Assembly: GCA_030765065.1 (NCBI GenBank)
Contig: CM060983.1
Span: forward strand, 48,544,067-48,608,066
Source of the DNA: Deroplatys truncata
Taxonomy: Eukaryota > Arthropoda > Insecta > Mantodea > Mantidae
Length of the DNA stretch: 64,000 nucleotides
Direction: 5' to 3'
Shown: positions 2,754-62,598 of the stretch, piece by piece
How positions within the stretch are numbered: position 1 is the stretch's first letter
How the letters are laid out: every line of letters starts with the position of its first letter
Translations under genes and position numbers: made by a program
Notes under the pieces: generated by a model
What the model saw: only the letters and a program-made list of their open reading frames with translations
What the model was told of the DNA's origin: nothing
Databases searched by the model: none

Positions 2754-3300
2754 ACCTTCTCTTCCACGTACGTAGTCGGTATTGGATTGCACCCAAAAAT
2801 TCGACACTGATATATCATCGGAAATTTGTTTTTAGTCCCCTGTCTAAAAAAAATTGAAGAATGTGTCTGAAAATGTGTATCGAAATGTCCAATAAATACT
2901 AAACTTGGTATTTAGGTTCAGTATGTTCCATATGCAACAAGAACGTTTTCAGGAAAATGCTCCCTCCCCAAAGCCCCTTTACACGAGAGTGTTTTTAATT
3001 TTCTCAAAACTGGCTTTAACAATTTTGATTAACATAACATGTGTTTAAGATATTTACATGACACATAAAAGTACATATCTTGAAATTTCTGGCTGTGAAG
3101 TCTTCTTCATTCGGAAACAATTTGTATATTTGGTAAATCGTAATGGAGACAACATCTTACTACACCAAAAATATAGATCTCATTAAATCACACAGTTTAT
3201 GTCAAGTTATGCAGGGTTAACCATTTTTCATATATTGTTATTCGTTTGAATTTTCAAATACTAATACTATTTTCAATGAATAAGTTACTATTCTATTTTA
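2754..3300 (+). mobile_element. family H copy, older, 3' truncated
   Basis: The degenerate 5' end ACCTTCTCTTCCACGTACG is followed by the usual order of blocks (TCACCGG-like, CTAAACTTGGTATTTAGGTT, GATTAACAT). It breaks off at about 3300, where another family H 5' end starts. Many substitutions relative to its neighbours indicate an older insertion. Confidence 0.75.
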
Positions 3301-5986: not shown

Positions 5987-6583
5987 TCTGATGTGTTATC
6001 GTACACTCACATGACTTTTTCTACTCTTGTACAAACTATTTTTACAAACGCTTATTCTCCATATGCTTCATGTTAATCGAGATGTTAATCTTATTGCTAG
6101 TTTTCTTGTAGGTGCAAGGGGAATTGGTAGGCTTTAAGGGATAGTCAAATCTTTTAAGAGCTGGTTGCTATGTAGCGCATTCCATTCTCTTTGCATTACC
6201 AGGACATAAAAAATGAATAACGAATTCCCATTTGAGAAAAAGTATTGAAAAATTTAAGGAATAACAAGCAATATCTTGAAAATGGTTCACTCAACCTATG
6301 GTTTACCAAAGTCGTTCACAATGAATACTTTTGGAGACATTTCCAGAAAACTCGATATATACATTTTATTTGTCATGAAAATATCAAACATATGATATTC
6401 TAATCAAAACCGTTAGAGCCATTTCTGAGAATATTAACATTTTCGAAAAATGTTCCATAAAGGGTAATCTGGGATGAGGGGATTTTCTTGAAAACCTTCG
6501 TGTCGCATTTCTGGAAGATACTGAACCTAAATACCAAGTTTGGTGTTTATCCGACTGTTCGTTTCTGAGTTATGCTGTTCATA

Positions 6584-6641
<58 letters not shown>

Positions 6642-6770
6642 CATGTTTCCAAAAATGCTTTTTTTTGGATTCAAGGGGTCAAAAACATATATTTTCGGGA
6701 AATCTTGGTGTAGAATTTTTGGGTGGAATACTATACTTCCCCTGCTTGCTATATGCGTAGTAGAGAAAGT
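5987..6770 (-). mobile_element. family H copy, subfamily A, with expanded AC core
   Basis: Left end TCTGATGTGTTATCGTACAC, right end GTAGTAGAGAAAGT before AAAAA. The core has expanded to an (AC) tract of about 27 units at 6585-6638. The overlapping frame at 6579-7052 is mostly a Cys-Val translation of this microsatellite. Confidence 0.85.
6585..6638. repeat. (AC)n microsatellite inside family H
   Basis: About 27 uninterrupted AC units occupy the place where other copies have only a few ACAC/ACAG steps, so the tract grew from the element's own core. Confidence 0.95.
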
Positions 6771-6815
6771 AAAAATCGCACCAATGTAAGAAATTAAATT
6801 TAAATAAACTTTATT

Positions 6816-7656
6816 ACTTTCTCTACTACATATAGTAAGATGAGGAAGTATTACATTCCACCCAAAAATTCGATACCAAGATTTCACCGGAAATACATGT
6901 TTTGAGGTCCGCTGAATCCAAATAAAGTATTTTTGGAAACATGCCGTGCGTCTGTAAACACAGTAAATCAAAAACGAAAAGTAGAATAAATACCAAACTT
7001 TGGTATTTAGATTCAATATATTCCAAAGATGCGACACTAAGATTTTGAACAAAATACCCCTATCGCGAACTACCCTTTACATGAAACATATTTCAAAATT
7101 TTGATTTTCTAAAAAAAATGACTAACGATGTTAATTAAAATACCGTATATGAAAGATATTTACATGACAAATAAAATAATGTCTTGAGTTTTCAGGGAAT
7201 AGCCTATGAAGTCTTTATTAGAAAGGAATTTTGTATGATCTTCTATAACTGGTAAACGTTAAGCGATAGACGAAAACGTACTACACAAAAAATTATATCT
7301 CTTTGAAACACACAATTTCTTTAAAATAAGTTTTTTGTGGCATAAGCCGTTTCTCAGATATACCTTATTAAAGATTCGAATTTTTCATTTATTGGTCATT
7401 CTTTAAAGTCCTTTCAACATTCAGCTGTTTCTCGCGATTGCTTGGAAACAGTATGGTATTTTAAGGCCAGCGTATAGCGTCCAGTTGTTAAACACTTGAC
7501 TATCGCTGTTCCCTTTGTATCTATAATGAAATGTGTAATGTAGCTGTTTCTGCAAAGGTTTATTTGGATTAAAATGTAGTAGATAGAAAAATAAGTAGTA
7601 TACGAACTAATAAACGATCAAGTGTAGAGAAAGTCAGGTGAATGTATAACATCAGA
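6816..7656 (+). mobile_element. family H copy, subfamily B, full length
   Basis: 5' end ACTTTCTCTACTACATATAG, 3' end GTGTAGAGAAAGTCAGGTGA and CATCAGA-like terminus before a T tract. It contains the subfamily B markers CTATCGCTGTTCCCTTTGTA and ACGAACTAATAAACGAT. It lies in divergent orientation to the copy at 5987-6770, with 45 bp between them. Confidence 0.85.
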
Positions 7657-8267: not shown

Positions 8268-9270
8268 ATGGAATTATCTCGTAAAAATGTTCGTGCAATG
8301 ATTTATTACGACTTTCGACGTAGATTATCAAGACAAGAGTGCATTGATCAACTAATTTCCACATTTGGCAACAAAGCTCCATCCTTTGCCACTGTGAAAC
8401 GCTGGTATAACGAATTTAATCGTGACCGCCGTTCGCTCAATGATGAAGTTCGTGAAGGTCGTCCAAAATCAGTTATTGTGCCAGAAAACATTGATGCTGT
8501 GCAAAACCTAATAATGAAAGATCGACATGCGACATATTGCGAGATTGAGGCAACCCTAGGCATTAGCTCCACCAGCATATATAAAATATTGCATGATTAT
8601 TTAACCGTGAAAAAGGTTTGCTCTCGTTGGATCCCACATAATTTGACGCAACCTCAAGAAATACAATGGCGGTGCCTCAAAAGACGTATATAAGATTATA
8701 TCAGGTGACGAATCATGGATCTATGCGTATGAGCCGGAACGTAAACAGTAGTCGACTGTATGGGTGTTTCAAGATGAAGCAAATCCAACAAAAGTGTTCG
8801 CACTCGAAGCACTTCGAAGCAAATGGTCGCCTGCTTTTTCAGCAAAACTGGCCATGGGCAAAAGTGCCTTTAGAGGAACGTAAAACGGTCAATGCCGAAT
8901 GGTACACAGCCATTTGTATGCCGGAAGTCTTCGGTAAAGTAAGGAAAACCAACAAGAACCGTAGGATCGTTCTTCATCAAGACAATGCGAGCGCACACAC
9001 ATCTCGTCTAACAACAGAGTATTTGAAGACTCAAAAAGTCAAATTGATGGGTCATCCACCATACAGTTCTTATTTGGCACCCAATGACGTATTTTTGTTC
9101 CGGAACATCAAGAATAAATTGCGTGGACAACGATTTTCGTTGGCAGAAGAAGCTGTGGATGCCTTCTAAAATCATGTTTTGGATGTGTCTCAAGAAGACT
9201 GGAATAAATGCTTTGACAAATGGTTCAAACGTGTATTGATCATAAAGGAGAATATTTTGAAAAACAATAA
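8268..9270 (+). pseudogene. mariner transposase, broken
   Basis: The ATG at 8268 opens the N-terminal DNA-binding part (MELSRKNVRAMIYYDFRRRL, helix-turn-helix, ending with the WIPHNLT linker near 8648), continuous to 8693. The catalytic part is split over other frames. GDESWIYAYEP, with the first catalytic Asp, is near 8704-8735. LHQDNASAHTS (second Asp) is near 8972. LAPNDVFLF (third Asp) is near 9080. The second and third Asp are separated by 34 residues, the D,D34D spacing of mariner. An apparent deletion near 8650-8690, an in-frame stop near 8750 and frameshifts near 8840-8870 destroy it. The SPDLAP motif reads SSYLAP. It acted as a cut-and-paste transposase and is now dead. Confidence 0.9.
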
Positions 9271-9298: not shown

Positions 9299-10390
9299 AC
9301 TTTCTCTACTACGTATAGTAAGTAGGGGAAGTATTGCATTCCACCCAAAAATTCGATACCGAGATTTCACCGGAAATACATGTTTTGAGACCTCCTGATT
9401 CCAAAAAAATCATTTTTGGAAACATGTCCGTGTGTGTGTCTGTGTGTGTGTGTGTCTGTGTGTCTGTGAACAGCATAACTCCAAAACGAACAGTCGGATA
9501 AACACCAAACTTGGTATTTAGGTTCAGTATCTTCCAGAGATGCGACACGAAGGTTTTCAAGAAAATCCCCCCACCCCAGGCTACCCTTTACATGGAACAT
9601 TTTTCGAAAATATTAATTTTCTCAAAAATGGCTGTAACGATTTTGATGAAAATATCATATATTTAAGGTAATGTCATGAGAAATGAAATGTATATCTCGA
9701 ATTTTCTGGGAATGTCTCCAAAAGTATTCTTCATTGTGAACGACTTTTGCATAACTGGTAAACCATAAGAGATAGACAAAATTTTACTACACAAAAAATG
9801 TAGATCGCGTTAAAATACACAACTTATGTCATATACATTTCTTTTGTTGAGTGAACCGTTTTCGAGATATTGCTTGTTATTTCCTTAAATTTTCCAATAC
9901 TTATACTTTTTCTCAAATTCGTTATTCATTTTTTTATGTCCTGGACATGCAAAGAGAATGGAATGCGCCACATAGCAACCAGCGTTAAAATATTTGACTA
10001 TCGCTTAAAAGCTACCATATTCCCCTTGCATCTACATGAATATTACCAATAAGATTGACATCTCGATATCTCGATTAACATGAAGCATATGGAGAATAAG
10101 CGTTTGTAAAATTAGATTGTACAAGAGTAGAGAAAGTCATGTGAGTGTAACACATCAGATTTCTTTATGTCCTGGACATGCAAAGAGAATGGAATGCGCC
10201 ACATAGCAACCAGCGTTAAAATATTTGACCATCGCTTAAAAGCTACCATATTCCCCTTGCATCTATAACAATGCAAGCAATAAGATTGACATCTCGATAT
10301 CTCGATTAACATGAAGCATATGGAGAATAGGCGTTTGTAAAAATAGATTGTACAAGAGTAGAGAAAGTCATGTGAGTGTAACACATCAGA
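9299..10390 (+). mobile_element. family H copy, subfamily A, inserted in mariner, with duplicated 3' end
   Basis: The 5' end ACTTTCTCTACTACGTATAG follows TACTTTTT of the mariner, and the last CATCAGA precedes TTTTTTTTAATTATTAGG of the mariner. A first complete 3' terminus lies at 10159. A second block at 10160-10390 repeats about 230 bp (from TTTATGTCCTGGACATGCAA) with its own hairpin and terminus. The core carries TG/TCTG repeats at 9430-9470. Frames at 9309-9560 and 9367-9600 (minus) are repeat-derived. Confidence 0.9.
10160..10390 (+). repeat. tandem second 3' end of a family H copy
   Basis: Direct repeat of about 9931-10159, differing by a handful of bases (such as ATAACAATGCAAGC against the first unit). 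Each unit ends with AGTAGAGAAAGT, the hairpin and CAGA. Confidence 0.9.
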
Positions 10391-11951: not shown

Positions 11952-12771
11952 ACTTTCTCTACTACGTATAGTAAGCAGGGGAAGTATTGTATTCCACCCA
12001 AAAATTCGATACCGAGATTTCACAGGAAATATATGTTTTGAGACCCCCTGAATCCAAAAAAGCATTTTTGGAAACATGTCCGTGTGTGTGTCTGCGTGCC
12101 TGTCTGTGAACAGCATAACTCAGAAACGAACAGTCGGATAAACACCAAACTTGGTATTTAGGTTCAGTATCTTCCAGAGATGCGACACGAAGGTTTTCAA
12201 GAAAAGCCCCCACCCCAGATTACCCTTTACATAGAAGATTTTTCGAAAATTTTAATTTTCTCAAAAATGGCTCTAACGATTTTGATTAAAATATCATATA
12301 TTTAAGATATTTTCATGAAATGTGTATCTTGAATTTTCTGGGAATGTCTCCAAAAGTATTCTTCATTGTGAACGACTTTTGCATAACTGGTAAACCATAA
12401 GAGATAGACAAAATTTTACTACATAAAACTGTAGATCGCGATAACATACACAATTTATGTCATATACATTTTTTGTTGTTGAGTGAACCATTTTCGATAT
12501 ATTACTTGTTATTCCCTTAAATTTTCCAATACCTTTTCTCAGATGGGAATTCGTTATGTCCTGGACATACAAAGAGAATGGAATGCGCCACATAGCAACC
12601 AGCTCTTAAAATATTTGACTATCGCTTAAAGCCTACCAATTCCCCTTGCATATAAAAGAAAATTAGCAATAAGATTAACATATCGATTAACATGAAGCAT
12701 ATGGAGAATAAGCGTTTGTAAAAATAGTTTGTACAAGACTAGAGAAAGTCATGTAAGTGAAACACATCAGA
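11952..12771 (+). mobile_element. family H copy, subfamily A, full length (good type copy)
   Basis: 5' end ACTTTCTCTACTACGTATAG after CCTTTTT; 3' end CAAGACTAGAGAAAGTCATG, hairpin and CATCAGA before TTTTTTT. Length 820 bp. The next family H copy begins 8 bp downstream in the same orientation. Frames at 11934-12213 and 12363-12593 (minus) are repeat-derived. Confidence 0.9.
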
Positions 12772-12778
12772 TTTTTTT

Positions 12779-14276
12779 ACTTTCACTACTACGCAGCTGG
12801 TATGTAGAGGAAGTATTGCATTTCACCCAAAAATTCGAGATTTCAATAAGAATACATTCCTTGAGCCCCCTAAATTAAAACAAATTGGATTTTTAAAGAA
12901 AAAAGTGTGTCAGAAGAGCAAACCCAAAAAAACAAAATGTTCTATAAATACTACAGCAGCATCTTCAAAAGCAAATCCCTCAATCCAAAATTATTCTTTA
13001 CAAGGAAGATTTGTCGAAATTTTTATTGCTTTAAAAATGGGTCGAACAGCTTTTATTAAAATTCGCTATATTTAAGATATTTACACAACAGATAAAATAT
13101 AAATGTTAATTTTCTAGGAAATTCTGAAGTGTTCTTCATTCGGAAGGAGTTTTTATAATTTTATATAACTGGTGAATATTAAGACGTACACAATAATTTA
13201 TAACACCAAAAATAAATATATCTTTAAAACACACAATTTATTAAAACAATTTTTATTGTCTCTCCAGCCATTCCCAAGATATCCGTTATTATTAGTTTGA
13301 ATTTTTCAATATAGTGTCATTTTTAAGTGCTGCCGCCATTCTGCTGTTTCTCGCGATGTTATGGACACAGTATGCAATTTCAAGTCCCGCGTATAGCATC
13401 CGTTTTTAAACATTTGACTATCACTTCGGTTTCTTGCATCACCCTTATACCTACAACGAAATGTGTGATGAAACTAATTCTGAAAATTTTTATCTCGATA
13501 ACGTGAAGTAGATACAAAAAAATTTTCATGACCTTACGCTCTATCGTTTGTTAGTGTGTATACACATTTTCTTACGAAATTTTATTTTTTATCTACATCA
13601 TTTTAATTGAGATAAACTTTTTATTACACATTTCGTTATAGATACAAAGGGAACAGCGATAGTCAAATGTTTAAGAACGGGACGCTATATGCTGGCCTTA
13701 AAATTCCACACTGTTTTCATGACATCGCGGGAAACAACTGAACGTTGACAGAACTTTAAAAGAATGGTAAAGTAATGAACAATTTGAACCATTAATAATG
13801 GATATCTGGGAAATGGCTAATGTCAAAAAGGTTATACGAAATAAACTGTTTTTTTACACAGCTCTGCATTTTTTGTGTAGTACGGTTTTGTCTATCACTT
13901 AACGTTTACCAGGATTATATAAAATTCCTTTCGAATGAATAGGATTTCATAGGCTAAATTCAAGAAATATATTTTATTTATCATGGGTAAGAGGATTTTT
14001 TTTAAAAAATCTTCGCGTCGCATCCTTGGAAGGTATTGAACAAGTTGGTATTTATCCGAATTTTCGTTTTTGGATTTTGTTCACAGACACACACAAGCAG
14101 GACCGTATTTGAAAATGCTCTTTCTAGATTCAGCTGACATCAAAACTGTATTTCCGGTGAAATTTAGATATCAAAATTTTAGTTGAACTGCAATTCTTTC
14201 TCAGCCTAATATAAACATTGTAGATAAAGTAATAAACGATAGTGAGTAGAGAAATTGATGTGAATGTAACGACAAA
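12779..14276 (+). mobile_element. family H copy, subfamily B, old, split by a minus-strand copy
   Basis: 5' end ACTTTCACTACTACGCAGC immediately follows the T tract of the upstream copy. The body runs to about 13528, is interrupted by a minus-strand copy (13529-14230), and resumes at AATAAACGATAGTGAGTAGA to a mutated terminus (TGTAACGACAAATC) near 14276. High divergence shows it is older than its neighbour. Confidence 0.75.
13529..14230 (-). mobile_element. family H copy, subfamily B, nested
   Basis: The left part reads inverted ACACTAACAAACGATAGAG and the GGGAACAGCGATAGTCAAAT marker follows at 13652. The right end is eroded to TTGTAGATAAAGT. It sits inside the 3' end of the copy at 12779. 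Confidence 0.75.
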
Positions 14277-15079: not shown

Positions 15080-16653
15080 TATCACGTGCGTAATAGGCAG
15101 AGAGGGTAATGCATTCCATCCAAAAATTTGAAACAGTTTTTTACCGGAAATACATGCTTTGAGGCCCTTTTAGAAAAATCTGATTGTTACACTCATATGA
15201 ATTTCTCTACTCTTGTACAAACTATTTTTACAAACGCTCATTCTCCATATGCTTCATGTTAATCGACATATCGAGATGTTAATCTTATTGCTAATTTTCT
15301 TGTAGATGCAAGGTGAATTGGTAGCCTTTAAGCATTAGACAAATATTTTAAGAGCTGGTTGCTATGTGCAGTATTCCATTCTCTTTGCATTACCAGGACC
15401 AATAAAAATAACGAATAACGAATTCCCATTTGAGATAAAGTATAAGTATTGGAAAATTTAAGGGAATAACAAGCAAATCTTGAAAATGGTTCACTCAATA
15501 AAAAAGTGTATATTGTGTATTTTAATGCGATCTACATTTTTTGTGTAGTAAAATATTGTCTATCTCTTATGTTTAACATTATGCAAAAGTCGTTCATATT
15601 GAAGAATACTTTTGAAGACATTCCCAGAAAATTCAAGATACACATTTTATTTTTCATGAAAATATCTTAAACATATGATACTTTAATCAAAATCGTTAGC
15701 CATTTTTAAGAAAATTAAAATTTTCGAAAAATGATCCATGAAAAGGGTATTCTGGGGTGGGGATTTTTTTGAAAGCCTTTGTGTCGCATCTCTGGAAGAT
15801 GCGCAACCTAAATACCAAGTTTGGCGTTTATCCGACTGTTCGTTTCTGAGTTATGCTGTTCACAGACACACACGGACATGTTTCCAAAAATACTTTTTTT
15901 GGATTCAGTGGGCCTCAAAACATGTATTTCCGGTGAAATCTCGGTATCGAATTTTTGGATGGAATACAATACTTCCCTTACTTACTATACGGAGTAGAGA
16001 AAGTAAAAACGAAAAGACGGATATACATTAAACTTGGTATTCAAAGATGCGAACGAAGATTTTCAAAACATCCACCCCAAACTGCTCCTTACATTGAAAA
16101 AGTTTCGAAATATTTTATTTTATAAAAAATGTCAAACGATTTTGGTTAAAATACCGTGTATTAAACATATAATTAATGAAAAATAAAATGTATATTATGA
16201 ATTTTCTGTGAATAACCTGTGAAATGCTCTTTATTCGGAAGGGATTTTGTATAATCTTGTATAAATGGTAAACGTTAAGGATAAACGAAGGCGTATTGCA
16301 CAAATAATGTAGACCCTTTAAAACATACAATTTATTTCAAATAACATTTTGTGGCATGATTCATTTACACGATATCCATTATTAATGGTCTCTTGAAGTC
16401 CTATCAATATTGTTTCTCGCGATGTCATGGAAACAGTATGGAAATTAAGGCCAGTATGTAGTGTCAGTTCTAAAACATTTGAATATGGTTATTTCCTTTG
16501 TATCTATAACGAAACTTGTAATGCAGCTATTTCCGGAATGTTATACGTCGATTAAAATGAAGTATATAGGAAAATAAACTTTCGTAAGAACAATTTGTGT
16601 ACCCACTAAAAAGATAGAGGGTTGAGAAAGTCATGTGAATGTAACACATCATA
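15080..16653 (+). mobile_element. family H copy, subfamily B, split by a minus-strand copy
   Basis: Left piece 15080-15178 has CCATCCAAAAATTTGAAACA and TTACCGGAAATACATGC. The right piece starts at 16005 with AAAAACGAAAAGACGGATAT, continues the expected block order, and ends TGAGAAAGTCATGTGAATGT, ACACATCATA near 16653. About 70 bp between the two pieces are missing. Confidence 0.8.
15179..16004 (-). mobile_element. family H copy, subfamily A, nested
   Basis: Left end TCTGATTGTTACACTCATAT after AAAAA; right end GGAGTAGAGAAAGT before AAAAA. It is inserted in the older copy at 15080-16653. The plus frame at 15738-16031 is repeat-derived. Confidence 0.85.
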
Positions 16654-16654
16654 T

Positions 16655-18000
16655 TTTTAGGAAACGGTGCATCTGTATGTATGTGAACAGTGCAACTCCA
16701 AAAACGAAATGACGTATAAATACTAAACTTGGTGTATAAAATCAGTATCTTTCAAACTTGCGACAGAGATTTTCAAGAAAATTTGCCACCCCAAACAATT
16801 CTGCATACGAATATTTTTAGTTATTACTTTCTCTACTACGTATAGTAAGTAGGGGAAGTATTGTATTCCACCCAAAAATTCGATACCGAGATTTCACCGG
16901 AAATATATGTTTTGAGACCATCTGAATCAAAAAAAAGAATTTTTGGAAACATTTTCGTGTGTATATCTGTGAACAGCATAACTCAGAATCGAACAGTCGG
17001 ATAAACACCAAACTTGGTATTTAGGTTCAGTATCTTCCAGACATGCGACACGAAGGTTTTCAAGAAAATCCTCCCACCCCAGATCATCCTTTACATGGAA
17101 CATTTTTCCAAAATTTTAATTTTCTCAAAAATGGTGTAACGATTTTTATTAAAATATCATATGTTTGAGATATTTTCATGACAAATAAAATGTATATCTT
17201 GAATTTTCTGAGAATGTCTCCAAAAGTATTTTTCATTATGAACGACTTTTGCATAACTGGTAAACCATAAGAGATAGACAAAATTTTACTACACAAAAAA
17301 CGTAGATCGCGTTAAAATACACAATTTATGTCATATACATTTTTTTTGTTGAGTGAACCATTTTCGAAATATTGCTTGTTATTCCCTTAAATTTTTCAAT
17401 ACTTATTTTCTCAAATGGGAATTCGTTATTCATTTTTTTATCTTGTATATGCAAAGAGTATTAATCTGTGGCAAAGGGAATGGTGCTGCACCTAGCAACC
17501 AGCTATTAAGAGATATGTATGTGCTTAAAGGCTACTGTTTTTCTATATTGCCCTTGTAAATATATTTTCCCCTTACATCTACAAGAAAATTAGCAATAAG
17601 ATAGTCTGCAAATGTTTATCTCGATTAACATGAAGTAGATGGAGAATAAGCGTTTGTAAAAATAGTTTGTACAAGAGTAGAGAAAGTCATGTGAGTAACA
17701 CATCAGATTTTTTCAATACTTCGCTATTTTCGTAATGCTCTCCCTAAGTTTCTCGCGATGCCATGGAGGGAGTATGTAATTCCTAGACCAGCATTTACGG
17801 ACCACCTTGTTAACATCTGACTATGGATGTGGTTTTATATATCCCCATTGAAACTACAACGAAATGTATAATGAAAGTATTTCTACAAACGTTTATCTCG
17901 ATTAACATGAAGTAGATATAAAATTTCATTTGTATAGCTTGTAGAAGCTACATAAAATAAACGACAATGGATAGAGAAGTCATAGGAATGTAAAACATTA
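16655..18000 (+). mobile_element. family H copy, subfamily B, split by a full copy
   Basis: The piece 16655-16825 begins inside the element (GTATGTATGTGAACAGTGCA). The 3' piece 17708-18000 carries TTCTCGCGATGCCATGG, ATCTCGATTAACATGAAG and a degenerate terminus GATAGAGAAGTCATAGGAAT. About 350 bp that should lie between them are absent. Another copy starts 10 bp after its end. Confidence 0.65.
16826..17707 (+). mobile_element. family H copy, subfamily A variant, full length
   Basis: 5' end ACTTTCTCTACTACGTATAG, 3' end GAGTAGAGAAAGTCATGTGA and CATCAGA. It carries the variant 3' third (AGTATTAATCTGTGGCAAAG) shared with 3474, 53290 and 61771. The frames 16817-17011 and 17084-17296 (minus) and 17353-17559 (plus) are translations of it. 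Confidence 0.85.
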
Positions 18001-18010
18001 AATTTTTGTT

Positions 18011-18867
18011 ACTTTCTCTACTATGTACAGTAAGTAGGCAAAGTATTGCAGTCCATCCAAAAGTTCGATACCGAAATTTCACCGGAAATACTTGTTTCGA
18101 TGCGTCCTGAATCAAAATAAATTATTTTTGGAAGCATGTCCGTGTGTCTGTCTGAAAACAGCAATCTCGAAACCAAAGAGTCGGGTAAATACCATACTTG
18201 GTACTTAGTCAATATGTTCCAAATATGGGACACGAAGGTTTTTCAACAAAATCCTCCTACCCCAAACTACCCCTTACATTGAAAATGTTTCGAAATTTTT
18301 GTATTTCTAAAATTGGCTGTACAATTTTGATTAAAATACCATATATTAAAGATATTTACATGAAAAAATGTATATCTTGAGGTTTCTGAGAATAATCTAT
18401 GAAGTCCTCTTCATTCGGAAGAAATTTTGTATAATCTTGTATAAGTGGTAAAGTTCAAATGACAGACAAAAACGTACTACACAAGAAATGTAGATCTCTC
18501 TAAAACACAAAATGTATTTAAAATATATTTTTGTTGCATAAGTCGTTTCTGATATATGCGTTATTAAAGGTTCGAATGGTTCATTTCTTGTTCTCACTCG
18601 TAAGTCCTGTCAATATTCAGTCGTTTCTCGTGAGTCATGAAAACAATATGGAATTTTAAGGCCAGCATATAGCGTTGAGTTCTTAAACATTTGACTGTCG
18701 CTATTCCCTTTGTATCTGTAACGAAACGTGCAATGTAGCTATTTCTGAAAATGTTTATTTGGATTAAAATGTAGTAGATAGAAAAATAAGTTTGAGTAAG
18801 AATAATTTGTGTACCGACTAATAAACGATAGAGGGTAAAGAAAGTCATGTGATTGTATCACATTAGA
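18011..18867 (+). mobile_element. family H copy, subfamily B, full length
   Basis: 5' end ACTTTCTCTACTATGTACAG, 3' end TAAAGAAAGTCATGTGATTG and CATTAGA before a T tract. GACTAATAAACGATAGAG marks subfamily B. Frames at 18021-18848 on either strand are repeat-derived. Confidence 0.8.
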
Positions 18868-19473: not shown

Positions 19474-20310
19474 TCGGATGTGTTACACTCACATGACTTT
19501 CTCTACTCTTGTACAAACTATTTTTACAAACGCTTATTCTTCATATGCTTCGTATTAATCGAGATGTTAATCTTATTGCTAATTTTCTTGTAGATGCAAG
19601 GGGAATTGCTAGGCTTTAAGCGATGGTCAAATATTTTAAGAGCTGGTTGCTATGTGGAGTATTCCATTCTCTTTGTATGTCAGGACATAAAAAAATGAAT
19701 AACGAATTCTCATTTGAGTAAAAGTATAAGTATTAGAAAACTTAAGGGAATAACAAGCAATATCTCGAAAATGGTTCACTCAACAACAAAAATGTATATG
19801 ATATAAATTGTGTATTTTAACGCGATCTAAATTTTTGTGCAATAAAATTTTGTCTATCTCTTATGGTTTACCAGTTTGCAAAAGTCGTTTACAATGAAGA
19901 ATACTTTTGGAGACATTCCCAGAAAATTCGAGATATACATTTCATTTGTCATGAAAGTATCTTAAATATATGATATTTTAATCAAAATTGTTAGAGCCAT
20001 TTTTGAGAAAATTAAAATTTTCGAAAAATGTTTCATGTAAAGGGTTATCCTGTGTGGGGGAGTTTTCTTGAAAGCCTTCGTGTCGCATCTCTGGAAGATA
20101 CTGAACCTAAATACCAAGTTTGGTGTTTATCCGACTGTTCGTTTCTGAGTTATGCTGTTCACAGACACACACACACACGGACATGTTTCCAGAAATGCTT
20201 TTATTTGAATTCAGGGAATCTCAAAACATGTATTTCCGGTGAAATCTCGGTATCGAATTTTTGGGTGGAATGCAATATTCCCCCTACTTACTATACGTAG
20301 TAGAGAAAGT
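19474..20310 (-). mobile_element. family H copy, subfamily A, full length
   Basis: Left end TCGGATGTGTTACACTCACA after an A tract; right end CTATACGTAGTAGAGAAAGT before AAAAATC. A short (AC)n core lies at 20162-20178. The plus frame 20028-20300 is repeat-derived. Confidence 0.9.
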
Positions 20311-23201: not shown

Positions 23202-24050
23202 TATGATGTGTTACACTCACATGACTTTCCCTACTCTTGTACAAACTATTTTTACAAACCCTTATTCTCCATATGCCTCATGTTAATCGAGATGTTAATC
23301 TTACTGCTAATTTTCTTGTAGATGTAAGGGGAATTGGTAGGCTTTAAGCTATAATCAAATGTTTTAAGAGTTGGTTGCTATGTGGAGTATTCCATTCTCT
23401 TTGCATTACCAGCACACAAAAAAAAAAATGAATAACGAATTTGAGAAGAAGTATAAGTATTGGAATTTAAGGGAATAACAAGAAAGATCTCGAAAATGGT
23501 TCACTCAACAAAAAAAATGTACATGACATAAATTGTGTATTTTAATTAGATCTAAATTTTTTGTGTAGTAAATTTTCCTCTATCTCTTACGGTTTACCAG
23601 TTATGCAAAAGGCATTCAGAATGAAGAGGACTTTTAGGCACGTTCCCAGAAAACTCATCATATACAGTTCATTTACCATGAAAGTGTCTTAAACATATGA
23701 TGTTTTAATCAAAATCGTTACAGCCAGTTTTGAGAAAATCAAAATTTTCGAAAAATGTTCCATTTAAAGCCTACCCTTGGGTGAGGGGAATTTCTTGAAA
23801 ATCTTCGTGTCGCATCTTTGAAAAATACTGAACCAAAATACAAAGTTTGGTATTTATACAAATTATTGCTTTTGAGTTATGCTGTTCTCACACACACATC
23901 CACAGAGACACACATACACGGACCTTTTTCTAAAAATGCTTTTTTTGGATTCAGGTGACCTCAAAGCATATATTTCTGGTGAAATCTCGATATCGAATTT
24001 TTGGGTGGAATACAATACTTCCCCTACTTACTATACGTAGCAGAGAAAGT
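23202..24050 (-). mobile_element. family H copy, subfamily A, full length
   Basis: Left end TATGATGTGTTACACTCACA (first C changed to A); right end ACGTAGCAGAGAAAGT. The core has ACACACATCCACAGAGACAC near 23895. It abuts another minus-strand copy at its right end. Confidence 0.85.
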
Positions 24051-24605
24051 AATAACGAATTCCCATTTGAGAACAAGTATAAGTATTGGAAAATTCAAAC
24101 AAATAACAAAAATATCTCGGAAATGGTTCCACTCCACAAAAAATGTATATGACATATTGTGTATTTTAAGGTGGTCTAAATGTTTTGTGTAGTAAAACTT
24201 TGTCTATCTCTTACGGTTTACCTTATTATGCAAAAGTCATTCAGAATGAAGATGACTTTTGGGGACTTCCCTGAAAATTGATCATATACATTTCATTTGC
24301 CATGAAAATATCTTAAATATATGATATTTTAATCAAAATTGTTAATAATTTTTAAGAAAATAGGAATTTTCAAAGAATGTTCCATGTAAAGGATAGTCGG
24401 GATAGGAGGATTTTCTTGAAAATGTTCGTGTGGTATCTTTGAAAGATAGTGAAACTAAATACCAAGTTTGGTATTTGTCCGACTTTTCGTTTTTGAGTTA
24501 TGCTGTTCATAGACATACAGACACACATTTTTTTTATTCAGGGCACCTCAAAACATGTATTTTTGGTGAAATCTCGGTATCGAATTTATACATAGCAGAG
24601 AAAGT
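24051..24605 (-). mobile_element. family H copy, 3' truncated, tandem with the previous one
   Basis: Starts internally at AATAACGAATTCCCATTTGA and ends at CATAGCAGAGAAAGT before AAAAA. Both copies point the same way, so they form a second type of head-to-tail pair with one partner truncated. Confidence 0.8.
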
Positions 24606-27725: not shown

Positions 27726-28184
27726 ATGAAGTTATTTACTAAAAAATCATAACTGTAATACAATCATAAAATATTTATATTTATTTGCAATATAAATGTC
27801 GTTTTCGAAAACAAGTTAGAATCGTATGGTCACGTTTTGCTTGATCAGTGCAACTTGATCATATTGGTATTATTTTCTGCCATCTGGCGTGTGGAACTTG
27901 CAGTAGGAATTTACTATTCTTTTATCTATGATTGCAAGAATGCTCCTAGTAGAGAAAATATGAAACAAATAAAACCTATATTATAGGTAATGACTTTGTT
28001 TACAGAAAAATGCTGAGACATATTAACCTGTTTCAATTTATTGGTTTATTATGAACATTATTTAAAAACCCAATTATCTCATCAATTTTGTAGTGTAATC
28101 CTTGTTTGATTTCTTCAATAAACAATGTGAAATGTCACAGCTAAAATGCTACAAGAAATGTATTTTAAGGAATATTGTTATATA
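27726..28184. other. unassigned AT-rich DNA
   Basis: No feature recognised. Confidence 0.4.
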
Positions 28185-42018: not shown

Positions 42019-42147
42019 GGTTATTATAGGGGAAGCTGGGCCACTTTTTTTGCGTTTATATGGGAAAGGATAGGTAAAACGAGGGTAGATGCGACGGTTC
42101 AAGGAGGAAAAATGCGTTTATATGTGAGAGATAGGGAATACGAGGAT

Positions 42148-42902
42148 GTCGTCGAGCGTCGTGTGCAACGTACATCCTCATGTCGTCGAGCGTCGTGTGC
42201 AACGTACATCCTCATGTCATCGAGCGTCGTGTGCAACGTACATCCTCATGTCGTCGAGCGTCGTGTGCAACGTACATCCTCATGTTGTCGAGCGTCGTGT
42301 GCAACGTACATCCTCATGTTGTCGAGCATCGTGTGCAACGTACATCCTCATGTTGTCGAGCGTCGTGTGCAACGTACATCCTCATGTCGTCGAGCGTCGT
42401 GTGCAACGTACATCCTCATGTTGTCGAGCGTCGTGTGCAACGTACATCCTCATGTTGTCGAGCGTCGTGTGCAACGTACATCCTCATGTCGTCGAGCATC
42501 GTGTGCAACGTACATCCTCATGTCGTCGAGCGTCGTGTGCAACGTACGTCCTCATGTCGTAGAACGTCGTGTGCAACGTACATCCCATGTCGTCGAGCGT
42601 CGTGTGCAACGTACATCCTCATGTCGTCGAGCATCGTGTGCAACGTACATCCTCATGTCGTCGAGCATCGTGTGCAACGTACATCCTCATGTCGTCGAGC
42701 GTCGTGTGCAACGTACGTCCTCATGTCGTAGAACGTCGTGTGCAACGTACGTTCTCATGTCGTCGAGCGTCGTGTGCAACGTACGTCCTCAAGTCGTCGA
42801 ACGTCGTAGCATGCTCCCGACGTACGTCCTCATGTCGTCGAGCGTCGTGTGCAACGTACGTCCTCATGTTGTCGAATGTCGTAGCATGCTCCCGACGTAC
42901 GT
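42148..42902. repeat. 34-bp minisatellite, about 22 units
   Basis: The unit GTCGTCGAGCGTCGTGTGCA plus ACGTACATCCTCAT repeats head-to-tail. Variants are CGTC/TGTC, GAGCGT/GAGCAT and ACATCC/ACGTCC, one unit is 2 bp short, and the last units carry a longer variant with TAGCATGCTCCCGACG. Because 34 is not a multiple of three and the unit has no stop in any plus frame, long overlapping open frames result (42007-43149, 42180-42731, 42569-42958). They encode 34-residue repeats such as VVERRVQRTSSC but are not evidence of a gene. Confidence 0.95.
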
Positions 42903-47715: not shown

Positions 47716-48549
47716 TCTGATATGGTACACTCACATGGGTTTCTCTACTCTTGTACAAACTATTTTTACAAACGCTTAATCTCCATATACTTCATGTTAA
47801 TCGAGATGTTAATCTTATTACTAATTTTCTTGTAGATGCAAGGGGAATTGGTAGGCTCTAAGCGATAGTACAATATTTTAAGAGCTGGTTGCTATGTGGA
47901 GTATTCCATTCTCTTTGCATTACCAGGACAAAAAAAATGAATAACGAATTCCCATTTGAGAAAAAGTATAAGTATTGGAAAATTTAAGGGAATAACAAGC
48001 AATATCTCGAAAATGGTTCACCCAACAACAAAAATGTATATGACATAAATTGTGTATTTTAACGCGATCTACATTTTCTGTATAGTAAAATTTTGTCTAT
48101 CTCTTATGGTTTACCAGTTATGCAAAAGTCGTTCACAATGAAGAATACTTTTGGAGACATTCCCAGAAAATTCGAGATATACATTTCATTTCTCATAACA
48201 ATATCTTAAACATATGATATTTTAATCAAAATCGTTAGAGCCGTTTTTGAGAAAATTAAAATTTTAGAAAAATGTTCCGTGTAAAGGGTTATCTGGGGTG
48301 GGGGGATTTTCTTGAAAACCTTTGTGTTGCATCTCTGGAAGATACTGAACCTAAATACCAAGTTTGGTGTTTATCCGATTGTTCGTTTCTGAGTTATGCT
48401 GTTCACAGACACACACACGGACATGTTTCCAAAAATGCTTTTTTTGGATTCAGGGGGTCTCAAAACATATATTTCCAGTAAAATCTTGGTATCAAATTTT
48501 TGGATGGAATACAATACTTCCCCTACTTACTATACGTAGTAGAGAAAGT
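47716..48549 (-). mobile_element. family H copy, subfamily A, full length
   Basis: Left end TCTGATATGGTACACTCACA after AAAAA; right end CTATACGTAGTAGAGAAAGT before AAAAAC. 834 bp. The plus frames 48272-48481 and 48364-48585 are repeat-derived. Confidence 0.9.
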
Positions 48550-52477: not shown

Positions 52478-54222
52478 AAGATCACACGACTTTCTCTGTC
52501 CTCTGTCGTAATTAGTAGGTATACAAATTATTCTTACGAAAGCATCTTTTTCTTTCTACTTCATTTTAATTGAGATAAACCATTGCAAAAATAGCTAAAC
52601 TACACATTGCGTTATAGATGCAAAGGGAACAGCGATAGTCAGATATTTAAGTACTGGACGCTACATGCGGGCCTTAAAGTTTCATACTGTTTCCATGAAA
52701 TCGGGAGAAACAACGGAAAATCGATAGGACTTAAAAGGAATGACGGAAATATTCCAACCTTTAATAACGGGTATCTCAGAAACGGCTTATGCCACACAAA
52801 GAATTATTTTAAATAAATCGTGTGTTTTAAAGATATCTACATTTTTTGTGTAGTACGTTTTCGTCTATTGCTTAACATTTACCAGTTATACAAAATTATA
52901 GAAAATTCTTCCAAATGAAAAGGACCTCCTAGATTATTCCAAGCAAATTCAAAATTACATTTTATTTGTTATGTAAATATTCTTTAATATACAGCATTTT
53001 AATTAAAATAGTTAGCTATTTTTTAGAAAATCGAAATGTTCGAAAAATGTTACATGTAAAGGATAGTTGGGGTGAGGGAATTTTCTTAAATCTTCGTGTC
53101 GCATCCTTAGAATATAATGAACTGAAATACCAAGTTTGGTATTTATCCCGACATTTTGTTTTTGAGTTACTCTGTTCACAGACACAGATACACACACACA
53201 CACGCGTGCAGACATGTTTCCAAAAATACTTTATTTGGATTCAGGGGCCTCAAAATATGTATTTCGGTGAAATCTCGGTATCAATTTTTACTTTCTCTAC
53301 TACGTATAGTAAGTAGTGGAAGTATTGTATTCCAACCAAAAATTCGATACCGAGATTTCACCGGAAATGCATGTTTTGAGACCCCCTGAATCCAAATAAA
53401 GTATTTTTGGAACATGTCCGTGTATGTGTCTGTGAACAGCATAACTCAGAAACGAACAGTCGGATAAACACCAAACTTGGTATTTAGGTTCAGTATCTTC
53501 CAGAGATGCGACACGAAGGTTTTCAAGAAAATCCCCCCACCCCAGATTACCCTTTACATGGAACATTTTTCGAAAATTTTAATTTTATCAAAAGTGGCTC
53601 TAACGATTTTGATTAAAATATCACATGTTTAAGATATTTTTATGAGAAATGAAATGTATATCTCGAATTTTCTGGGAATGTCTCCAAAAGTATTCTTCAT
53701 TGTGAACGACCTTTGCATAACTGGTAAACCATAAGAGATAGACAAACTTTTACTACACAAAAAATGTAGATTGCGTTAAAATACACAATTTATGTCATAC
53801 ATTTTTTGTTGTTGAGTGAACCATTTTCGAGATATTGCTTGTTATTCCCTTAAATTTTTCAATACTTATTTTCTCAAATGGGAATTCGTTATTCATTCTG
53901 TTTGTCTTGGATATGCAAAGAGTATTGATCTGTGGGAAAGGGAATGGTGCTGCACATAGCAACCAGCTATTAAGAGATATGAAGGCTACTGTATTTCTAT
54001 ATTGCCCTTGTAAATATGTATTCTCCTTACATCTACAAGAAACTTAGCAATAAGATAAGAGTCCTCAAATGTTTATCTTGATTAACATGAAGTAGATGGA
54101 GAATAAGCGTTTGCAAAAATAGTTTGTACAAGAGTAGAGAAAGTCATGTGAGTGTAACACATAAGATTTTTTAGGTGGAATGCAATACCTTCTCTATCTA
54201 ATATGTACGTGGTAGAGAAAGT
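52478..54222 (-). mobile_element. family H copy, subfamily B, split by a plus-strand subfamily A copy
   Basis: Left piece 52478-53289 (ACACGACTTTCTCTGTCCTC; GGGAACAGCGATAGTCAGAT; core (AC)n at 53180-53205). Right piece 54167-54222 (GGTGGAATGCAATACCTTCT to GGTAGAGAAAGT). Joined, the two pieces give the expected inverted 5' end. Confidence 0.85.
53290..54166 (+). mobile_element. family H copy, subfamily A variant, nested
   Basis: 5' end ACTTTCTCTACTACGTATAG, 3' end GAGTAGAGAAAGTCATGTGA and CATAAGA. Inserted in the T5 tract that intact copies have in GAATTTTTGGGTGG (minus-strand sense). Frames 53300-53566 (minus) and 53835-54047 (plus) are repeat-derived. Confidence 0.9.
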
Positions 54223-60130: not shown

Positions 60131-61377
60131 TAGGGCAGTCCCAGAAGTACCCGACCTGACGTATAGATAGCGACTGTTATTTCAAACAAATGACTATGGT
60201 AGAAAGTACCACCCTTATAAAGCTTAAGTTTGAAGTTTGACGATGCTACGTTGTTTAGTAATTGTTTGGCAGCCATTAATAGTGAACTCTCTCAGCGAAT
60301 TTGTAAACATGGATAAAACTGGCCATCGTTATACAATAAAATACTTTCATTTGAAAGGTCTTGGTCCAACTAATATTAAAGCTGAACTAGATCCTACTCT
60401 GGGGGAGTTTACAACAGTAAAACATTGGGTGGCAGAGTTTAAGCGAGACCATACGAGCTGCCAAGACGAACATCGCAGTTGTCGACCAAATGAGGTGACC
60501 ACTCCAGAAGCTGTGAATAAAATCCACAAAATGGTATTGGATGACCGTCGACTGAAAGTGCGCGAGCTAGCAGACATCACAGGCATTTCAAAAAGTGCTG
60601 TACATCGCATACTGACTGAAAATTTAGACATGAGAAAGCTGTCCGCAAGGTGGGTGCCGCGTTCACTTACAATGGAACAAAAACAGCGTCGTAAAGATGT
60701 TTCAGTCGAGTGTTTGGCGATGTTTCGCTGCAATAAAGCTGAGTTTTTTGCGTCGATTCATAACCATGGACGAAATATGGATTCATCATAGATTGAAAGG
60801 GAGAATCGGCTGCAGAGAAGGCGAAGACAGTTCCATCTGCAGGCGAGGTCATGGCGTCAGTTTTTTGGGATGCACGTGGAATAATTTTCTTAATTATCTT
60901 CAAAAAGGAAAAGCAATCAATGGCGAGTATTATGTAAACTTATTGCAGCGTTTGAAATGATGAAATCAAGCAAAAACGGCCGCATTTAGCGAAAAAGGAG
61001 GTTCTGTTTCATCAAGACAATGCACCAGGTCACACATCCATTATCGCAATGGCCAAAAAGCAATGAGTTAAAGTTCGAATTGCTTCCTCATGCACCCTAT
61101 TCGCCAGACGTAGCCCCTTCTGATTATTTTCTGTTTCCAAAGTTGAAGAAATGGCTTGGTGGTAAAAGATTTGCCAACAATGAAGAGGTGGAGTATGCAG
61201 TTGATGGCTATTTTGCAGAACTCAACGGTTCTCAGTATAAACAGGATATCGAAGCTATCGAACATCGCTGGGAAAAGAGTATCGAGCTGAAAGGAGACTA
61301 TGTAGAGAAATAAAGATGTTCTTTTCCCAAAGTTTTGTGTTTTCTTTGTTAGGTCGGGTACTTCTGGGACAGCCCTC
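60131..61377 (+). mobile_element. mariner element, irritans-like
   Basis: The left end GGGCAGTCCCAGAAGTACCC starts at 60133 after TA. Read inwards from 61375 the right end is GGGCTGTCCCAGAAGTACCC, one mismatch in the first 20, and the inverted repeat extends to about 26 bp. The right flank reads TC instead of TA. Length 1243 bp, full size for mariner. Confidence 0.9.
60309..61313 (+). pseudogene. mariner transposase, frameshifted
   Basis: The ATG at 60309 (MDKTGHRYTIKYFHLKG) is preferred to the upstream ATG because mariner proteins of this type start so. The helix-turn-helix ends at WVPRSLTMEQKQRR. Catalytic residues: TMDE (first Asp, near 60763), HQDNAPGHTS (second Asp, near 61010) and SPDVAPSDYFLF (third Asp, near 61105). 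The C-terminus ELKGDYVEK ends at the stop after 61310. Frameshifts at the T6 run 60747-60752, near 60957 (TGA at 60958) and near 61055-61064 (TGA at 61064) break it. Three indels in an otherwise recognisable protein suggest a fairly young but dead copy. Confidence 0.9.

Positions 61378-62552: not shown

Positions 62553-62598
<46 letters not shown>

Follow-up and report, generated by a model that had tools for sequence, protein, structure and literature searches.

The 64,000-nucleotide stretch of the Deroplatys truncata genome analysed here (the window; C9:48544067-48608066 of a 4.29-Gb genome) contains at positions 11952 to 12771, on its forward strand, an 820 bp copy of a repeat that we call family H, delimited by motif scans and by its matches in the genome. 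This reported copy begins with the 5' inverted-repeat unit ACTTTCTCTACT at 11952-11963, letter for letter as the first-pass annotation gave it, and ends with CAGA at 12768-12771; the T tracts that had been seen on both sides are five T's before 11952, of which the final TT is probably part of the element, and seven after 12771. A subterminal inverted partner of the 5' unit, ACTAGAGAAAGT, lies at 12738-12749 and is followed at 12751-12767 by the hairpin sequence ATGTAAGTGAAACACAT, which is degenerate in this copy. The inverted partner does end 22 bp before position 12771 as described, but the strings quoted for the 3' end differ from the letters of the reported copy by one base in the inverted partner and two in the hairpin, so the family form had been given there. 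An AC/GT core is seen in other window copies, with (AC)27 at 6585-6638 and (CA)20 at 62555-62595, but the reported copy has only a short GT stretch. Forty of 8,138 genome candidates were scored, the copy itself included, and the main matches of the 39 other relatives are 87-91% identical to it.

Within the window 42 sites match ACTTTCTCTACT with at most one mismatch and 17 match the 3' hairpin with at most three, where 0.44 and 0.34 are expected, so that the 5' end, the inverted 3' partner and the hairpin recur far above chance and were correctly taken for family features. The 5' end is also itself an inverted repeat, ACTTTCTCTACT...AGTAGGGGAAGT in its common form, which had been overlooked. 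In the reported copy this repeat spans 11952-11985 on the forward strand, and its second arm, AGCAGGGGAAGT, matches at 9 of 12 positions; of 30 distinct 5' ends that follow a TT, 21 have at most three mismatches of 12, versus 56 of 1,500 shuffles. Its first arm lies inside the subterminal inverted repeat (subTIR), which is the arrangement of DINE-1. The common form of the hairpin has a 5-bp stem and a 7-nt loop, within the 5-10 bp of the 3' palindromes of non-coding Helentron-associated elements (HINEs). As single-stranded DNA it is no stabler than its shuffles (z of -0.06 for the common form, -0.75 for the coding partner described below and +0.82 for the reported copy), so conservation alone speaks for it. 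The 5' TC, 3' CTRR and A/T insertion of canonical Helitrons are not found; family H has 5' T/ACTTTC, 3' CAGA and T runs. Its window copies show no coding capacity, as in HINEs, and the sole ORF that overlaps them and reaches 150 aa between stops, 6579-7076, lies on mixed repeat and microsatellite sequence.

Full copies of family H lie at 1920-2744 on the forward strand and at 15179-16004, 19474-20310 and 47716-48549 on the reverse strand, and another, at 53290-54166 (forward), sits inside an oppositely oriented H copy, its joined flanks matching unbroken H copies. The forward-strand copy at 16826-17707 has a different inner segment beyond position 606, and that at 18011-18867 is diverged (73%). 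Two further elements are composites: 9299-10390 (forward) is a full H with a second 3' half (H 606-820) that went into a mariner as one unit, and 23204-24605 (reverse) is a full H copy preceded by a 5' half (H 1-606), with two 5' ends and one 3' end. Directly downstream of the reported copy, at 12779-13311 on the same strand, is an older, diverged H copy that is 67-73% identical to it. The head-to-tail pair at 12771/12779 was considered as a rolling-circle product and rejected because the ages differ, the reported copy being much closer to its other relatives than to this neighbour; it looks like two insertions of different age. The window also contains two ORFs, at 8642-9169 and 60234-60791, that we take to be mariner-like, and the DNA beyond the first of them has at least 40 relatives in the genome. 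A 34-bp tandem array of about 21 copies occupies 42146-42902, with one frame open for 381 codons.

Family H had been said to fill over a third of the window; about a third is nearer, as the value runs from 29.0% to 36.5% with the query set. The reported copy as query covers 29.0% (30.0% with a looser search), six queries from elsewhere in the genome 32.3% (32.4% with the reported copy added), and eleven queries 36.5%, five of these being window copies that cover themselves; reversed queries cover 0.0%. Coverage is uneven among sixteen 4-kb bins, at 76-83% in three and 0% in two. The window has five exact 3' ends where 1.5 are expected from the genome mean, and is therefore an H-rich place.

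All 46 distinct exact 5' ends have at least two T's before ACTTTC, which places the 5' subTIR 2-4 nt from the terminus as in HINEs, and 39 of the 46 have at least four (the TTTT background is 1.7%); a diverged 5' end at 27959 on the minus strand of the window has a single T. Downstream, 17 of 21 exact 3' ends run into at least three T's, and in the remaining four an A (three ends) or a C (one end) precedes the T run. Between 2 and 9 T's are present, and the two sides mostly differ in their number. The first-pass annotation had named target duplications of fixed length as evidence that would speak against a HINE; at the well-aligned empty sites, where several joined flanks match unbroken copies, there are extra T's only, about 3 to 8 of them. 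This is the T-rich insertion of HINEs, with no clear target duplication, and two poorly aligned targets (L007 and L075/L055) differ, their joined flanks departing at the junction by several bases from targets that are 67-82% similar. The clearest case is the 9299-10390 composite, which lies in the 3' region of its mariner: of 1,327 candidates 40 were scored, and all 40 matches span the junction unbroken; all five mariner copies read have AC-TTTGTTTT-AATT, and the filled site is AC-TTTTT-element-TTTTTTTT-AATT. The fourth and fifth T's are absent from the target copies read, so the two left T's are probably the element's own, which would put the subTIR 2 nt from its end. A target G inside the mariner T run is missing from the filled site, by loss or by earlier mutation, and because of this G and the junction differences at L007 and L075/L055, insertion may bring small changes to the target.

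Exact matches in the genome number 102,083 for the 37-base 3' end of family H and 130,996 for its 27-base 5' end, with 0 occurrences of either reversed control pattern. Family H is present in at least a hundred thousand copies, and if each 3' end stands for one 0.83-kb copy, the exact ends alone would make up about 85 Mb, or 2% of the genome. Inflation of this count by a satellite was considered and rejected, as the 83 exact junctions in a 3.4-kb satellite are under 0.1% of the 102,083. All 83 are confined to the arrays at C1:20306-122828 and C16:33833-269014 (L082, L084), near the starts of both contigs; the unit is about 3,409 bp, and between the two units read identity is 98.9%; in each of them a single full H copy (85% identical to the reported copy) is set in 2.6 kb of other sequence. 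A palindromic repeat that has no long ORFs is found at C1:13831800-13845000 (L099 and L100) and C1:22026500-22034900 (L098). The 13.2 kb read in the first of these places show 99.6% self-complementarity; their arms contain several H 5' units and their centre has tandem repeats, and pattern listings suggest further copies near 8.18 and 26.12 Mb of C1. On C1 some H 5' ends form mirrored pairs with a spacing of about 450 bp rather than about 620 bp, and these seem to be part of this repeat.

No stretch of the window matches an autonomous partner beyond H itself, in agreement with the first-pass annotation, which had proposed a genome search for the same termini around a Rep-helicase plus endonuclease ORF. 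That search found such elements, about 9.8 kb in length. A genome search with PF14214 gave 152 matches from 150 scored of 291 candidates, and 18 of the matches listed are inside open frames of 2,108-2,543 aa. B1 and B2, two loci read over 20 kb, share 99.2% identity along 7 kb; both have an H 5' end, a frame of 2,324 or 2,345 aa and a 3' end in the order subTIR-hairpin-CAGA, and neither has an ORF above 200 aa outside the long frame. This single ORF encodes a Herpes_teg_N-type domain, a Rep domain, a PIF1 helicase and a C-terminal AP-type endonuclease; read from its ATG, the 2,287-aa protein matches PF04843, PF20209, PF14214, PIF1 and PF14529. The PF04843 (Herpes_teg_N) match has an E of 1.2e-8 with the whole protein and 4.5e-11 on a fragment, and that of PF14529, 2e-6 on a fragment, is at 28.1 bits just above the cut-off of 27.4. 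Among PDB sequences the protein matches PIF1-type helicases, Helraiser and, weakly, a herpesvirus large tegument protein (E 0.0028); the endonuclease part gives no useful match there (best E 0.44). Rep motif 2 is VEFQMRGSPHEH, with an S between G and P that is described as diagnostic of Helentrons in the part of Thomas et al. (2014, PMC4067079) used here. The partner thus has the Rep, PIF1 and C-terminal AP-type endonuclease of a Helentron in one ORF, along with the Helentron form of Rep motif 2.

The Herpes_teg_N-type (cysteine peptidase-like) domain is fused in frame at the N-terminus (L045:341-1000), where the literature consulted has OTU proteases instead. It is followed by an in-frame 63-bp (21-aa) tandem array of about 14 units (L045:1142-2017), and several of the partner frame lengths, 2,324, 2,345, 2,387 and 2,408, differ by multiples of 21. 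In B1 (L039) the 5' non-coding region, which starts out H-like in direct orientation, includes further on, at 3012-3279, a segment of H (positions 697-433) in inverted orientation. The exact 46-base partner 3' end occurs 37 times in the genome, so that exact H 3' ends outnumber the coding elements by about 2,700 to 1. H copies occur on C16, at 707 Mb (16.5% of the genome) the largest contig seen, and none of these 37 ends lies there (binomial P 0.0013), perhaps as a sex-chromosome effect.

The partner shares the ends of family H. In B1, H 1-685 aligns to the partner start (87%) and H 789-820 to its end (87.5%), and among the partner copies examined 16 of 16 5' ends and 20 of 20 3' ends carry these termini. 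Thirteen additional, weaker Rep loci have a partner-type 3' end in nine cases; of the other four, L089 has the ORF end only, and three have neither a 3' end nor an ORF end in the stretch examined. The subTIRs common to H and partner comprise 12 of 12 positions at the 5' end and, for H in its common form, GTAGAGAAAGT (11 bp) at the 3' end, in line with the shared subTIRs of at least 11 bp that join a HINE to its Helentron. H 686-788 has no match at the ends of B1 or B2, so simple deletion from the partner does not account for H. At the 3' end the alignment is confined to the last 32 bp, short of 80% over the last 60 bp, and H and its partner are, on this alignment, different 3' subfamilies; none of the coding elements seen among the loci read has a 3' end of the H type. 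The 3' subTIR of H is 22 bp from the end of CAGA, unlike the 38-60 bp of the HINEs of Metaseiulus occidentalis, but that distance is the range given for the mite families in the consulted part of PMC4067079 and no rule for all HINEs, and neither it nor the subfamily difference excludes HINE membership.

The genome therefore holds a few dozen copies of a coding Helentron that shares the ends of H and probably moves it, a pairing that rests on common termini rather than on observed movement. We are confident that family H is a non-coding Helentron-associated element (a HINE, DINE-1-like), probably copied by the Rep/helicase/endonuclease protein of this low-copy Helentron, with which it has the 5' end and the 3' subTIR-hairpin in common. 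The HINE reading of the first-pass annotation is thus borne out by coding elements with the same termini. The family is of an ordinary kind; its copy number, the intactness of its partner and the clarity of its composites are unusual.

Most H copies compared have a T run, GTTATTCATTTTTTTATGTCC, at about position 606 (the H606 site; its place in the reported copy, at 12555-12559 on the forward strand, is deleted), and many partner copies lie in it. Ten of 22 partner 3' ends (the 20 examined plus B1 and B2) are followed by the right half of this site. Reading the flanks of the 18 partner copies with both ends seen (the 16 examined plus B1 and B2) places H606 halves around the innermost element on both sides in eight, on the left only in seven, on the right only in one and on neither side in two; the eight two-sided cases are nested insertions, and 15 of the 18 copies are at the H606 site or have captured an H 5' half. 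Composites with two 5' or two 3' ends have inserted as one unit: L079/L059 has two 5' ends and its target is unbroken in an antisense H, and with the two 3' ends of 9299-10390 both end choices are backed by empty sites. Tandem 5' and 3' halves might instead be left by rolling-circle read-through in unfinished rounds, and the consulted parts of PMC7492417 and PMC5148889 do report truncated tandem copies of Helitrons. That origin is improbable, as the partner copies seen break at one particular T run of H and, where both flanks could be read, 8 of 18 copies have the lacking half on their opposite flank; the joined flanks at H606 also match unbroken H copies.

In the genome as a whole, patterns that share one right anchor find 7,072 filled and 31,702 empty right junctions of H606 (18%); 17,077 left junctions were counted with another anchor and are not directly comparable with these. 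For a second T run of H, in antisense, the counts are 3,118 filled and 126,954 empty (2.4%). The sevenfold difference is a lead rather than a measured insertion preference, because the pattern lengths differ and composites multiply after insertion. Tentatively, and with somewhat less than even confidence, we suggest that H copies are landing pads for their own family, that the T run at about 606 is favoured for same-orientation insertion, and that 5' ends captured from its own parasite now travel with the Helentron as alternatives.

A different mover for family H has also to be weighed. A Helitron2-type element, with Rep and helicase and no endonuclease, could be drawn from the second Rep class of this genome (class A, L009-L012), which has higher Pfam scores and stops within the matches; this is very unlikely, since the single class-A locus that was read over 20 kb is bordered by no H ends and its ORFs are broken, and the class that does have H ends includes the endonuclease. 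Least probable of all is that family H is a MITE of a cut-and-paste DDE transposon, its inverted 12-bp ends being TIRs and its flanking T runs target duplications: other DINE-like families were indeed once classed as MITEs (Thomas et al. 2014, PMC4067079, in the part used), but the coding elements found with H ends carry Rep, helicase and endonuclease, the 3' repeat is 22 bp inside the end, the T numbers are variable and mostly unequal, and the one large inverted structure with H ends that was examined has no ORF above 140 aa. The inverted structures with H 5' ends at 13.83 and 22.03 Mb of C1 were also tried as a DDE source and rejected, being the palindromic repeat described above, with its tandem-repeat centre.

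As a HINE with its Helentron, this pair is most like the systems of Metaseiulus occidentalis and Culex, which in the portion of PMC4067079 drawn on have 12-bp subTIRs, a 3' palindrome, a T-rich target and no other target duplication, and partners with Rep, PIF1, an AP-type endonuclease and the S in Rep motif 2. Unlike those, the present partner has no separate RPA ORF (among ORFs above 200 aa in B1 and B2) and has the Herpes_teg_N-type domain fused at its N-terminus, and H and its partner are separate 3' subfamilies. Drosophila DINE-1 / INE-1, likened here by the description in the same source, shares the 5' inverted repeat with its first arm in the subTIR, the GT/AC microsatellite, the 3' hairpin and insertion at T's; against it we set for H a length of about 0.82-0.88 kb and over 100,000 exact ends. 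Cg_HINE of Crassostrea gigas has T-rich insertion, no TSD and copies within other repeats, and in the part of PMC7492417 consulted no autonomous partner could be linked to it, so the partner of a HINE is sometimes not identified; for H a partner is found, and the window H copies show no satellite-like core. For FoHeli of Fusarium oxysporum self-insertion and composite elements are also proposed (PMC5148889, in part), but these belong to the Helitron2 group that has no endonuclease, and FoHeli1 and 2 have a TNAT/A target. Among the titles listed by searches of open-licence PMC papers, we noticed none that describes family H.

In Rep-helicase transposons the Rep protein nicks, displaces and rejoins a single strand. 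By this known chemistry, Rep would nick family H at the 5' T/ACTTTC end, the helicase would displace a single strand, copying would normally stop at the 3' subTIR-hairpin-CAGA end, and the product would be joined into a T-rich site, which the endonuclease domain might nick, although this last is a guess. That the partner protein acts on H in this way is suggested by the shared ends. New copies often land in an internal T run of older H copies and give composites, in which either 5' end, outer or inner, could begin the copying and either 3' end could terminate it. The partners with H606 on one side may have started at the outer 5' end of the host H and stopped at the partner 3' end; alternatively, copying could start at the inner 5' end and continue to the outer 3' end. 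The nick, displacement and rejoining of a single strand are set out for this class of transposons in the consulted part of PMC4067079.

One genome here holds many near-identical coding copies with matching ends together with a very abundant non-coding family. To our knowledge Helentron transposition has not yet been reconstituted, and naturally occurring composites that carry a doubled 5' or 3' end, at sites whose empty state is known, are ready tests of which ends start and stop copying. On the landing-pad reading, HINE arrays would grow because a single Rep chooses among 5' and 3' ends unequally.
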